Positions 21,985-47,353 of a stretch of DNA of 56,743 bases are shown piece by piece (position 1 is the stretch's first letter; each line of letters opens with the position of its first letter). The stretch lies in the NCBI RefSeq assembly GCF_000429225.1, contig NZ_AUBL01000028.1, positions 1-56,743 of the forward strand, in the 5' to 3' direction. Under the pieces are notes generated by a model, which had not been told where the DNA came from, searched no databases, and saw only the letters and a program-made list of their open reading frames with translations. Both the position numbers and the translations under genes were made by a program. The DNA comes from Actinomyces dentalis DSM 19115 (lineage in GTDB: Bacteria > Actinomycetota > Actinomycetes > Actinomycetales > Actinomycetaceae).

Positions 21985-23626
<1,642 letters not shown>

Positions 23627-23824
23627 ATTCAAGGATGTCGGATGCCCGCATCGTAACGCCGGCGCCCCCGCCGCGCTCGGGCTGGCCGCCGCGGGTGTCG
23701 CCGGCCCGGCCCCGTCCGGCCGCGTCCGGGCGCCGGCGGGCCTGCGCGCGGGGCCGTGCGCATGGGCGGGGCCGGGCCCGCGCGGGGCATCTTGCGGCGC
23801 GCGGGCGAGGCGCGGGCGCGCGGG

Positions 23825-24705
23825 TCAGTAACGGTGCGGCCCCGGGGGCGCGGGGGTGAATCCCGGCCGCCCGGGCGCTGCGGCCCCGGGTCCGACCCCG
23901 GAGCCCAGGGTGCGGAGTTTGGAGATGAGGACCACGTGCACGAAGAAGAGCGCGACGGCGACGAGTATCGCCGCCGTCGCCGCGGCCGGGCCGGAGTCGC
24001 CCGTGGCGCCCTCGTTGGCGGCGGTCAGGATGATTATGGTGAGCGGCGCGCCCTGGAAGATGGAGGCGGCGAGGACGCCGCCGGTGACGCCGCCGATGCC
24101 CGCCCACCGCGCGGGCAGCGGCGTCGACCTGCGGGTGTTCGCCACTATGCACGCCGCCAGGGACAGCCCGAAACACGTGGCCCAGATCACTATAACGATC
24201 AGGGGCACGAGCATGATGCTCAGTAAGGCGGCCATCAGCCAGATCAACACGTCCTCCACCGACCAGGAGTCGCTTGCGCCGAGGGGCAGAAGGATGCCCA
24301 GCGGGGCGATGCCCTGGATGATGACGGAGACCAGCCCGGTGATCGCCGCCCCCATTCCCAGCCCGCGGGCGGTCCGCAGGCTCTTCTCCGCGGCCTGCTC
24401 GGGGGTGGGCGGGAGGACGGGCATGGGCGCGGGCGCGTACGGGGGCGCGCCGCCATACGCAGATGCACCGCCGTACGGGGGCGTCCCGGGGCGGGCCGGT
24501 CCCACGCCGTACGGGGGCGCGCCCGCCACGCATAGCATGTTTCGGCTGCCCGAAACGCCGGTCCCACGCCGTACGGGGGCGCGCCACTATGCGGAGATGC
24601 CCCGGGACCGGTCGGTCCGACGCCGTACGGGGACGGCGTCGGACCGGCCCCCTGCACGGACGTCGGATAGGGGTCGGACTCGTACGACGGCTGATACTGT
24701 CCCAT
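23825..24705 (-). pseudogene. Four-TM membrane protein gene, frame-disrupted by direct repeat
   Basis: Reading begins at ATG 24705 (MGQYQPSYESDPYP, with GAGGAT eight bases upstream). It encodes a Pro/Tyr/Gly-rich cytoplasmic leader of GAPPYGVGP-type units. This frame goes wrong after 24557, and the natural continuation (GAPPYGVGPARPGTPPYGG, then about four membrane segments) is in another frame down to the stop at 23825. The switch falls between two 29-bp direct repeats spaced 62 bp apart. Loss of one repeat unit would restore a single ORF. A late start at ATG 24538 is possible but lacks a ribosome binding site. Function unknown; the Pro/Gly/Tyr leader followed by TM helices is common in actinobacterial membrane proteins. 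Confidence 0.6.
24495..24585 (-). repeat. 29-bp direct repeats, 62-bp period, with hairpin spacer
   Basis: Identical 29-base copies occupy 24495-24523 and 24557-24585. The 33-base spacer contains a perfect 7-bp inverted repeat, gtttcgg-ctgc-ccgaaac (24539-24556). The 62-bp period is not divisible by three, so gain or loss of a unit changes the frame of the surrounding gene. Confidence 0.85.
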
Positions 24706-25714: not shown

Positions 25715-25997
25715 TTCGACGGTGCCGCGTCAGCCCCTTTCCCTTCGCCGGGATCGGCCTCGCGCCGGCCCGGCAGGCCGTGAGCGCGGCGGAGGCCTCC
25801 CTCCCCTGTCGGGATCGACTCCGGCCCTGCCCTGACCGCACAGCACCGACCGCACAGTTCTCCCCATCACCCGGACCAGCCCCAGCCTGCCAAGGGGTCT
25901 CGGGCCCGGAGTCCCCCAGCCGTCCCCTGTCCTCTGAGCGCCCCGCCCCTGGGGGAGTCGGGCGCCGGCCCCCGGGGAGTCGTTTTGGTGATGTCAC

Positions 25998-26115
25998 CTG
26001 GGCTCGCATTGCGCCAGGTGGGATCACGCGGATTGCGCTCAGGTGGATTTCGTCGCGCTGGGCTCGCACGGCGCGAGGTGGGGTGGACTGTGTTGCGCTG
26101 GGCTCGCATTGCGCA
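25998..26115 (+). repeat. Degenerate 40-bp tandem repeat
   Basis: Units beginning ctgggctcgca(tt/cg)gcgc start at 25998, 26058 and 26098, with an extra 20-bp half unit at 26038-26057. The array lies in the 1.4-kb stretch 25715-27103, which has no gene I can support. That stretch holds, in order, this array, the palindrome at 26291, a 7-bp-stem hairpin at 26581-26599 and the MITE-like element at 26725. Confidence 0.65.
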
Positions 26116-26599: not shown

Positions 26600-26724
26600 A
26601 AGGGCGCAATGGGCCTTTCTCACTGGGTGCGACGGTCCGTGGGTCCGGATCGTCGTGATGTGGCGGGGATGGGCGGGCACGGGGTGGTGCGGGTGGGGCT
26701 CCTGGGACGGTCCGGGGCGGGGCG

Positions 26725-26844
26725 TGTCCAAATCTGTTGCAAAGGCGCTCAAGGCCGGGATCGGCCGCGAGAAGAACCGCGGAATATCAACGATTCTCTT
26801 TCGGCGCTCCGGCCCGATCCGGGCCTTTGCAACAGATTTGGACA
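26725..26844. mobile_element. 120-bp MITE-like element with 22-bp terminal inverted repeats
   Basis: The ends 26725-26746 and 26823-26844 are perfect 22-bp inverted repeats starting TGTCCAAATCTGTTGCAAAG. The ~76-bp interior has no ORF and is less GC-rich than its surroundings. I see no clear target-site duplication. Size, perfect termini and lack of coding capacity fit a non-autonomous miniature element moved by a transposase in trans; the parent element is not in the window. Confidence 0.65.
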
Positions 26845-27103: not shown

Positions 27104-28027
27104 TCAGCGCAGCGTGTCGGCCAGATCCCCGATGCGTCCGAGGAGGCCGCTCAGGTAGCGCGGCGAGTCGTCGGTGGACAGCATGCGCGCCAGCGTTATC
27201 GCCTCATCCACGGCGACCGGGGCGTCGACGTCGTCATTCCACACGATCTCCCACGTGGCGACCCTGGCGATGGCGCGGTCGACCGCCGGCATGCGGGCCA
27301 GCGCCCAGCCCTGGGCGTAGGTCTCGATGGCCTCGTCGACCTCCGCCAGGTGGTCGGCCACCCCGGCGAGGATCTCGCGCGCGTAGGCGGGGGCCGGCGT
27401 GTGGTTGGCCGAGTGCTCGGCGCGCTCGGCGGCCAGGTCGCGCAGCGCCCGGGCGGCCCCGGACTCCTCCGCGCGGGCCGCGGCGACCCCGCCGTACTCG
27501 TCGTACGCGGGGCGCCCGTCGTACTCGTCGTGCACGAGGCGGTGTCCGTCCCGCTCGTCGTATTCGCCGTGCACGAGGCGGTGTCCGTCCCGCTCGTCGT
27601 ATTCGCCGTGCACGTCGTACTCGTCACGCACGGGGTACTCGTCGCGTCCGCCGTACCCGCCGCGAGCGCCGTACTCGTCGTACGCGGGGCGCCCGTCGTA
27701 TTCGCCGGGGGCGTCGTACACGGAGTGCTCGTCCCGCTCACCGCGGGCGGGGTACTCGTCGTACTCGCTGCGAGCAGGGCGCTCGTCGGGGGCGGAGCGC
27801 GCATCCCGCTCGCCGTACTCGTCACGCCCGCCGCGGACAGGATAGTCGCCGCGCCCGGGGGCCCCGCCGCGCTCGTCGCGCAGCAGGCCGCGCTGGTCGG
27901 CCTCGAAGAGGATCTCGACGGCGCGGCGGCGCGCCTTGGTGCGGGCCGTGACGGAGTGCTTGGCGCCGTGCGGGCGCGCGGCCCCGCCGGGGTCCGGGGC
28001 GCCGGTGGTGGCGTCGGAAGGGGTCAT
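27104..28027 (-). CDS. nusB: Transcription antitermination factor NusB with large insertion
   Basis: NusB binds boxA RNA with NusE to prevent premature termination in rRNA operons. The conserved parts are the first helix (TARTKARRRAVEILFEADQR, residues ~26-46) and the C-terminal helical bundle (ILAGVADHLAEVDEAIETYA, RMPAVDRAIARVATWEI, VDEAITLARMLSTDDSPRY). Between them, residues ~50-185 form a low-complexity Tyr/Asp/Glu/Arg/Gly insertion rich in YDEY motifs and containing an exact 13-residue tandem duplication. The total is 307 residues instead of the usual ~140-160. The frame stays open throughout. Its ATG shares one base with the efp stop (TGATG). Confidence 0.88.
   Translation of the reverse strand: MTPSDATTGAPDPGGAARPHGAKHSVTARTKARRRAVEILFEADQRGLLRDERGGAPGRGDYPVRGGRDEYGERDARSAPDERPARSEYDEYPARGERDEHSVYDAPGEYDGRPAYDEYGARGGYGGRDEYPVRDEYDVHGEYDERDGHRLVHGEYDERDGHRLVHDEYDGRPAYDEYGGVAAARAEESGAARALRDLAAERAEHSANHTPAPAYAREILAGVADHLAEVDEAIETYAQGWALARMPAVDRAIARVATWEIVWNDDVDAPVAVDEAITLARMLSTDDSPRYLSGLLGRIGDLADTLR
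27531..27608 (-). repeat. 39-bp tandem duplication inside nusB
   Basis: Two identical 39-base copies (27531-27569, 27570-27608) encode GEYDERDGHRLVH twice. A second repeated unit, YDGRPAYDEYG, occurs on either side. Units are multiples of three, so the frame is preserved. Confidence 0.85.
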
Positions 28028-45767: not shown

Positions 45768-45890
45768 CCCGCGAGATCGCCGGGTAACCGCCGAGCACGT
45801 CACTTAACCCGCGAGCACGTACCTCTAGCAGACGTGCTCGCGGGTTACCCGACGATCTCGTGGGTTAAGTGACGTGCTCGCGCGCCGGGG
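45768..45890. repeat. Dispersed palindromic repeat, copy 2 (inverted, expanded)
   Basis: Positions 45768-45848 are nearly the reverse complement of the element at 26291-26390, including the loop acctctagcag. The block then continues with an added module (acgatctcgtgggttaagtg, then acgtgctcgcg). A further gacgtgctcgcgcgcc occurs at 45930-45945. The element fills the gap between the convergent MMPL and brnQ genes and may act as a bidirectional terminator. Confidence 0.75.
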
Positions 45891-45952
45891 CGTCAGCTGG
45901 CGGAGGGTCCGCACATCGCAGTCCAGAATGGACGTGCTCGCGCGCCAGGGCC

Positions 45953-47353
45953 TCAGCGCTGGCCGATGACGGCCCGCTCGACGTCCTCGGCGGCGTCGGA
46001 CATGTCGCTGGCGGGCGTGGACCAGCGGCCCGCGCGCACGTCCAGGGCGGCCCCCAGGACCAGGGCGAGCAGGGTCGGCGCGATCCAGCCCGTCGAGCCG
46101 TTCCACGCCCCGCTGCGCGCCAGCAGCGCGCTGGGGGCGTCCCAGCCGGCCTCGGCCAGGGCCGAGACGAGGCCGAGGACGCCCGCCACCGCCACGGGCC
46201 ACGTGTAGGCGGTGCGCAGGCGGCCCGGCGCGACGACGTCGAGGATCGTGGCCGCCACGAGCGTGATGGTGATGGGGTAGAGCAGCAGCGTCAGGGGCGC
46301 GACGATCCTGATGATGACCGCCAGCCCCAGGTTGGACAGGATGAGGGCGCACCCGGCCCCGGCGACGAGGTGGCGCGAGAAGGTCGTGCGCGGGAGGGTC
46401 GCGTAGGCGTAGCCGGCCCAGGCGGACAGGAGCCCCACGCTCGTCGTCAGGCAGGCCAGGATGACGATCGCCGCGAAGACGATGACGCCCGCCGGCCCCA
46501 GGGCGCTGGAGGCGGCCGAGCGCAGCAGCGCCGTGCCGTCGTCGGCGGCGCCGCCGGTGCGCGTCCCAATCATCGCCAGGCCGATGTACACGGCGGCCAG
46601 GAGGGCCGCCGCGATACCGCCGGCCGCCGCGGTGGCGCGCACGACCCGGCCGGTCGAGCCGATCCCGCGGGAGCGCAGCGTCTGGATCACGACGATGCCG
46701 AACACCGTCGCGGCCAGGACGTCCATGGTCAGGTAGCCCTGGGTCAGCCCGGTGCTGAAGGGGGAGGCAGCGTACGGGCCCGAGGCGGCGCGCTCGACGA
46801 CGTCGTCCCCGGCGATGGTCGCGACGCACAGCACGGCGATGAGGACCAGCAGCGCCGGGGTGAGCCAGCGCCCGACGCGGTCGGCGAGCCTGCTGGGCCG
46901 CAGGGCGATGAGGACGGAGACGACCAGGAAGCCCGCGGCGTGCGCCGGCAGCGTCCACCGGCCGGGGGCCGCGCCGAGCAGCTCCAGCACGGGGCGCGTG
47001 GCCAGCTCGTAGGCGACGGTCACCACCCGCGGTATCGCGTAGAGCGGCCCGATGGACAGGTACACGGCCGCGGGCGCGACCGCGCCGAACCGTCCGCCCA
47101 CGCGGCGCGCCAGCCCGAGGATGCCCTCGCCGGAGGTGGACACGGCGATGACGGCGACCAGCGGCAGGAGCACCCCGGTGATGAGGAACCCCGCCATGAC
47201 CGCGGGGAGCCGGTCCCCCGCCGAGGCGCCGAGCACCGGCGGGAAGATGAGGTTGCCCGCGCCGAAGAACAGGGCGAACAGCATCAGGCCGGTGACAACG
47301 GTCGTCCCGGGGCGTCCGGGGGCGTTCTGGTCGGTTCGTGCCGGTTGGGTCAT
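45953..47353 (-). CDS. brnQ: Branched-chain amino acid transporter BrnQ (LIVCS family)
   Basis: This is a cation-coupled permease for Leu, Ile and Val with about twelve membrane helices, 466 residues. Helix 1 carries TGLMLFALFFGAGNLIFPP. STSGEGILGLARRVGGRFG, YLSIGPLYAIPRVVTVAYE and PFSTGLTQGYLTMDVLAA are all characteristic BrnQ/LIVCS blocks. ATG 47353 has GGAG four bases away. An in-frame extension upstream (to 47524) is Arg/Pro-rich and not part of the family. It converges with the MMPL gene. Confidence 0.93.
   Translation of the reverse strand: MTQPARTDQNAPGRPGTTVVTGLMLFALFFGAGNLIFPPVLGASAGDRLPAVMAGFLITGVLLPLVAVIAVSTSGEGILGLARRVGGRFGAVAPAAVYLSIGPLYAIPRVVTVAYELATRPVLELLGAAPGRWTLPAHAAGFLVVSVLIALRPSRLADRVGRWLTPALLVLIAVLCVATIAGDDVVERAASGPYAASPFSTGLTQGYLTMDVLAATVFGIVVIQTLRSRGIGSTGRVVRATAAAGGIAAALLAAVYIGLAMIGTRTGGAADDGTALLRSAASSALGPAGVIVFAAIVILACLTTSVGLLSAWAGYAYATLPRTTFSRHLVAGAGCALILSNLGLAVIIRIVAPLTLLLYPITITLVAATILDVVAPGRLRTAYTWPVAVAGVLGLVSALAEAGWDAPSALLARSGAWNGSTGWIAPTLLALVLGAALDVRAGRWSTPASDMSDAAEDVERAVIGQR

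Follow-up and report, generated by a model that had tools for sequence, protein, structure and literature searches.

A 62-bp addition in the window (the whole 56,743-nt stretch analyzed here, on contig C24 of Actinomyces dentalis DSM 19115) interrupts a predicted membrane-protein gene and is very probably a scar, left when a type I-E integrase inserted a spacer off target into coding sequence that resembles a CRISPR repeat. Three observations taken together point to this reading: a 29-bp duplication that encloses a 33-bp insert, a matching spacer in a CRISPR array of the same genome, and a series of repeat pairs spaced at 60–62 bp.

Anatomy of the Interrupted Gene

The gene is read on the minus strand from ATG 24705, which is preceded by a GAGGA-like sequence. 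Within it lie two identical 29-bp direct repeats at an offset of 62, the first copy in gene order at 24557–24585 and the second at 24495–24523 (both minus strand); the upstream frame reads GAPPYGVGP from copy 1, and the downstream frame reads the same residues from copy 2. The upstream frame (24244–24705, 153 aa) is truncated, being in the wrong frame after the insert, and the rest of the membrane protein is carried by the downstream frame (23825–24538, 237 aa), whose ATG lies inside the insert. A hairpin occupies 24539–24556, and its 6-bp core pattern has a single match in the window at ≤1 mismatch, with 0.02 expected. The coordinates, frames, hairpin, and ATG had all been given correctly in the initial annotation; it did not note that the repeated part accounts for just 29 of the 62 bp and that the remaining 33 bp (24524–24556, minus strand) are unique.

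The 33-bp segment has a G+C content of 0.61, versus 0.73 for the downstream part of the gene. It contains no CRISPR-repeat sequence and has no other match in the 3.53-Mb assembly at ≤3 mismatches; at the same tolerance, a 28-base pattern of the flanking repeat has no further match either. Exact direct-repeat pairs of at least 18 bp at spacings of 20–300 number four in the window, and the single one at 60–62 is the pair described here. A simple tandem duplication was rejected because the middle is not repeated. Integration by a type I-E system predicts a duplication of about 28 bp, an insert of 32–34 nt, and type I-E Cas1 and Cas2 in the host; the site has 29 bp and 33 bp, and the host encodes both proteins. 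The total of 62 is one more than the usual 61. The duplication can alternatively be parsed as 28 bp with a 34-nt insert, a length that one array spacer of the genome has. The dyad in the target has a stem of 4, versus 6 in the CRISPR repeat.

Relatives of the gene show what the uninterrupted product looks like. With the downstream frame as query, 5.8 billion clustered proteins yielded 22 relatives, and these predict a product in which a hydrophobic membrane part comes after a Pro/Gly-rich tail; Pfam holds no family for it. Seventeen of the 22 start with MGQ and have an N-terminal region that is uninterrupted in a single frame, and an eighteenth, the fragment P0016, has the same residues on either side of the site with nothing between them. 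The other four (P0009, P0011, P0020, and P0022) lack the N terminus and begin downstream; they are uninformative or otherwise broken, so that other frame breaks may exist in this gene. The N-terminal tail itself contains repeats, related motifs recurring every 36 bp, and its length differs between alleles. Residues of the insert occur in none of the 13 hits to the upstream frame and, read in either frame, in none of the homologous proteins found, among which clustering at 90% identity could hide some. In the nearest species, G015, the gene is uninterrupted and the insert is absent at the DNA level, so that an insert-free site is documented in relatives both as protein (P0016) and as DNA (G015). 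Within the collections searched, then, the insert is either rare or private.

Elsewhere in the window, a coding region at 27479–27680 carries tandem repeats with units of 18, 27, and 39 bp, and its protein is possibly length-variable; the single RNA-family match is a sub-threshold PyrR-binding site (23589–23638; 27.4 bits versus a gathering score of 54) that closely precedes a pyrR-like gene.

Similarity of the Insert to a Host Spacer

The host carries a type I-E system. On contig C60 all eight products of the gene set match PADLOC models, with a partial Cas2 sequence, and the CRISPR repeat of the genome has 71 matches, distributed over C4, C7, C13, and C60. It has no match on C24, and by this measure the window site is not a canonical array. 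The arrays combine 28-nt repeats with spacers that measure 33 nt in 64 of 66 cases (one is 34 nt and one 45 nt), giving a repeat–spacer unit of 28 + 33 = 61, versus 29 + 33 = 62 at the window site. Very large type I-E arrays are also present in G015 (C1, about 667,600–704,300; L103 and L104), where 252 repeat matches in these two stretches yielded 245 extracted spacers and a second, variant repeat lies beside the arrays.

The insert resembles one of the host spacers over its full length. Aligned at offset 0 on the same strand, from first to last base, it is identical to the spacer at C7:2122–2154 at 26 of 33 positions. The runner-up among the 64 distinct own spacers reaches 16 of 33, or 17 once G015 spacers bring the set to 303 distinct, and 3,000 random 33-mers from the window scored at most 24. 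One end of the C7 array is flanked by the likely leader, which shares 91% identity across 107 bases with the sequence next to cas2 on C60. The matching spacer is the fourth from this end, and from its position it is judged to be young. Another co-terminal variant pair among the array spacers agrees at 28 of 33 positions and sets a precedent in this genome for the capture of diverged versions of one protospacer.

Part of the match may reflect a shared motif. The hairpin in the insert (24539–24556, minus strand) is a palindrome that resembles an operator-like sequence of the genus and is present in the C7 spacer as well; counted by eye, insert and spacer agree at 15 of 18 positions within the palindrome and at 11 of 15 outside it. 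At ≤2 mismatches the palindrome was found in 10 of 39 genomes searched, the host included, and in the neighborhoods inspected it often lies upstream of genes whose translations read as metal transport. A palindrome of this kind, GTTTCGGNNNNCCGAAAC, occurs around base 1501 of L020, L022, L024, L025, L027, L030 (with one variant base), and L031, upstream of genes reading like metal-binding lipoproteins or NRAMP-type transporters; it is a probable metal-responsive operator of the genus.

Searches for a protospacer or PAM of the insert gave none in viral contigs, genome contigs, phages, plasmids, or 48 other genomes of the genus, the best phage and plasmid hits (E = 0.2 and 6) being at chance level. 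A search of viral contigs with a neighboring spacer likewise found nothing.

A Series of Repeat Pairs at 60–62 bp

We scanned for isolated direct repeats of about 27 bp with sharp edges at shifts of 35–100, leaving out CRISPR arrays. The sample of the host genome (G000) covered 897 kb, or 25% of the genome, at a G+C content of 0.735. At ≥24/27 identities, 15 of 39 pairs lie at shifts of 60–62, with 1.8 expected if shifts were evenly spread (P = 6.5 × 10−11); at ≥25/27, the count is 10 of 30 (P = 4.9 × 10−7). The idea arose from the first 505 kb of G000, and in the 392 kb fetched afterward 8 of 17 pairs (shifts 40–90) fall at 60–62. The sister species G015 (433 kb, ≥25/27) has 10 of 22 pairs in this range, with one site counted twice, and 9 of 20 on a rescan with an added array filter; G005, another cas1e genome (400 kb), has 2 of 6 at ≥25 and 3 of 8 at ≥24. 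Of the two 62-bp pairs in G000 at ≥25/27, the added filter removed one, probably the window's own, because its motif recurs nearby.

Three genomes without cas1e over the family cut-off (G007, G020, and G023; 800 kb together) served as controls and gave, at ≥24/27, 0 of 2, 1 of 2, and 0 of 0 pairs at 60–62. Compared by length, cas1e-positive and control genomes hold 26 versus 1 such pairs (P = 5 × 10−4), but the controls hold few repeats at any spacing and by proportion do not clearly differ from the positives; the peak within genomes is therefore the stronger argument. The G007 counts exclude five pairs, 5 of 5 at the 25/27 cut-off and all at 61, that lie in one degenerate CRISPR array.

From these scans we assembled 26 candidate sites. 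Sixteen are in G000 (15 from one scan and L120, picked up in another at the stricter cut-off), and 10 are in G015, merged from eight of the nine pairs of one scan, with an L103 array pair omitted, and two from another. Left out were a site on C13 caught by the CRISPR-repeat filter, a pair at shift 63 (L123:5917), and pairs with similarity outside the repeat or within tandem repeats, such as L099:6353, L086:548, and L080. Ordinary coding repeats may make up some of the 26, especially at shift 60, a value that in-frame coding repeats can also produce. The window holds a weaker candidate second scar of this shift at 45871–45957, where a 27-bp direct repeat (two mismatches) encloses a 33-bp insert and dispersed repeats are present in the region. 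Dispersed families of roughly 50–160 bp, with many copies in G000 and G015, occur in the window at 25963–26098, 26684–26844, and 45831–45882.

Targets, Inserts, and Donors of the Candidate Sites

Duplications measure 27–29 bp in 14 of the 26 sites, and inserts are exactly 33 in nine. The targets differ from site to site, apart from two steps of one site, and what they tend to have in common is a central dyad. Their mean stem is 4.19, versus 3.16 (sd 0.24) at random sites, and 0 of 2,000 random samples was as high, with the caveat that random sites do not make a perfect null model where repeats are GC-rich. A central dyad is also a feature of the type I-E repeat.

Two inserts have donors. The C8 insert (L097:7432) is identical at 30 of 30 bases to a C2 gene of the same genome, kinase-like on our reading of its sequence. 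The C15 insert (L124:786) matches chromosomal sequence along its whole 33-base length, at 32 of 33 positions in G015 and, in its own genome (C6:21210–21242), at 31 of 33. Local searches of the sampled sequence gave no convincing donor for most other inserts, and a genome-wide pattern search with the L096 insert matched only itself. Empty-site searches for the other candidate scars returned mostly dispersed-repeat hits, leaving the window gene as the one usable comparison.

A solitary CRISPR repeat outside the arrays (C13:63844–63871; L067:1345–1372), which lies just 3′ of a gene that we read as xseA-like, is flanked by direct repeats at 60–61 bp; its insert consists of the CRISPR repeat plus five bases, and the flanking duplications differ by one G. 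The arrangement looks like an off-target integration with a CRISPR repeat as the insert. The xseA-like site of G015 lacks this insert, and its downstream flank is too divergent for an empty-site call. On C9 (L119:12153–12302), three copies of about 28 bp at 61-bp steps enclose two different spacers, with a repeat unlike the genomic CRISPR repeat; the site is possibly a newborn mini-array.

Proposed Mechanism and Alternative Readings

In the mechanism that we propose, type I-E Cas1–Cas2 of the host would carry a prespacer of ~33 nt, whose source was probably an element related to the one from which the proper array also acquired a spacer. The complex would attack both strands of a CRISPR-repeat-like GC dyad in coding sequence at points ~28 bp apart, and gap filling would duplicate the target to give target–33 bp–target, a net gain of 62 bp that would shift the frame and break the Pro/Gly-rich membrane-protein gene. 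Recombination between the two copies could later lose the insert, a step that would not be reversible. Cas1–Cas2 as the enzyme, a mobile element as the donor, and the loss of the protein are parts of this scheme that we infer from sequence.

The initial annotation had proposed instead a phase-variable locus, in which gain or loss of the 62-bp unit by slippage or recombination turns a membrane protein on and off. Part of that proposal stands: the gene is out of frame here, and alleles without the 62 bp exist. Exact 29-bp repeats, the frame shift, and a hairpin between the repeats would suit such a switch. Its reversibility is what the evidence does not support. Deletion between the repeats would remove the unique 33 bp, which slippage cannot remake, so that the unit, once lost, could not be regained in this way; no further allele with the unit was found among homologous proteins, nor any other sequence with the insert, and the same spacing is seen again at unrelated loci. 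We regard the switch as very unlikely. Expansion of a coding Pro/Gly repeat, with one stretch then decayed into the 33-bp segment, would draw on the repetitive tail, its 36-bp steps, and its variable length between alleles, but it would have to leave two 29-bp copies identical around a middle that has no trace of the repeat and resembles a CRISPR spacer over its full length, and 62 is not a multiple of 3; this origin we consider highly unlikely.

A draft assembly of 90 contigs and an insert found in no other sequence invite the suspicion of an assembly or sequencing artefact. Such an error is extremely unlikely, given that the insert has no second match in the assembly (≤3 mismatches) and carries no CRISPR-repeat sequence, and that the genome of G015, which is a single contig, also has pairs of this kind. 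It is barely credible that the insert provides a working operator and start codon, with a shorter protein made from ATG 24538 under metal control. The palindrome does resemble the operator-like motif upstream of metal-transport-like genes, and that ATG does lie inside the insert, but no evident ribosome-binding sequence precedes it, whereas one precedes ATG 24705, and the upstream N terminus is kept in 17 of 22 homologues. A start at 24538 was rejected on these two grounds.

Discussion

The probable off-target type I-E integration at the window gene leads to a broader proposal, toward which we lean with some reserve: that the CRISPR integrase is a standing insertional mutagen in this lineage, having left perhaps dozens of 60–62-bp scars at repeat-like dyads across the chromosome, copying self and foreign 33-mers, breaking genes, and occasionally seeding a mini-array as on C9. 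The usual description of spacer integration has it guided to the array. Reading off-target events from genomes would provide a natural measure of how faithful the integrase is, of its target rule, and of its mutational cost. If the proposal is true, seeding of the C9 type would offer new CRISPR loci a natural way of arising, and counts of 61-bp signatures across sequenced genomes could test how such loci originate. We found no earlier report of recurrent natural scars of off-target integration in a literature search that covered subscription sources poorly; such scars appear to be new, and an earlier report is possible.

The window site shares features with three known systems. In contingency loci, phase-variable direct repeats in coding regions shift the reading frame. 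The window likewise has frame-shifting direct repeats in a coding region; unlike contingency loci, it has a unique segment between just two copies, and loss of the unit is irreversible by slippage. With the canonical type I-E arrays on C7, C60, and C4 it shares a unit of 61–62 bp, a 33-bp spacer, and a duplicated repeat with a dyad, here of the shorter stem; unlike in those arrays, its repeats consist of host coding sequence, different from the CRISPR repeat of the genome, and a leader is absent. Passages of two later articles (PMC11788318 and PMC9456107) credit spacer integration outside arrays after Cas1–Cas2 overexpression to Nivala et al. 2018. As represented there, the E. coli type I-E work of Nivala, Shipman, and Church likewise involved a type I-E host in which spacer-sized DNA was integrated away from the array. 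The E. coli case arose under laboratory overexpression, whereas the present one lies in a natural genome, inside a gene, and is accompanied by many similar candidate sites.
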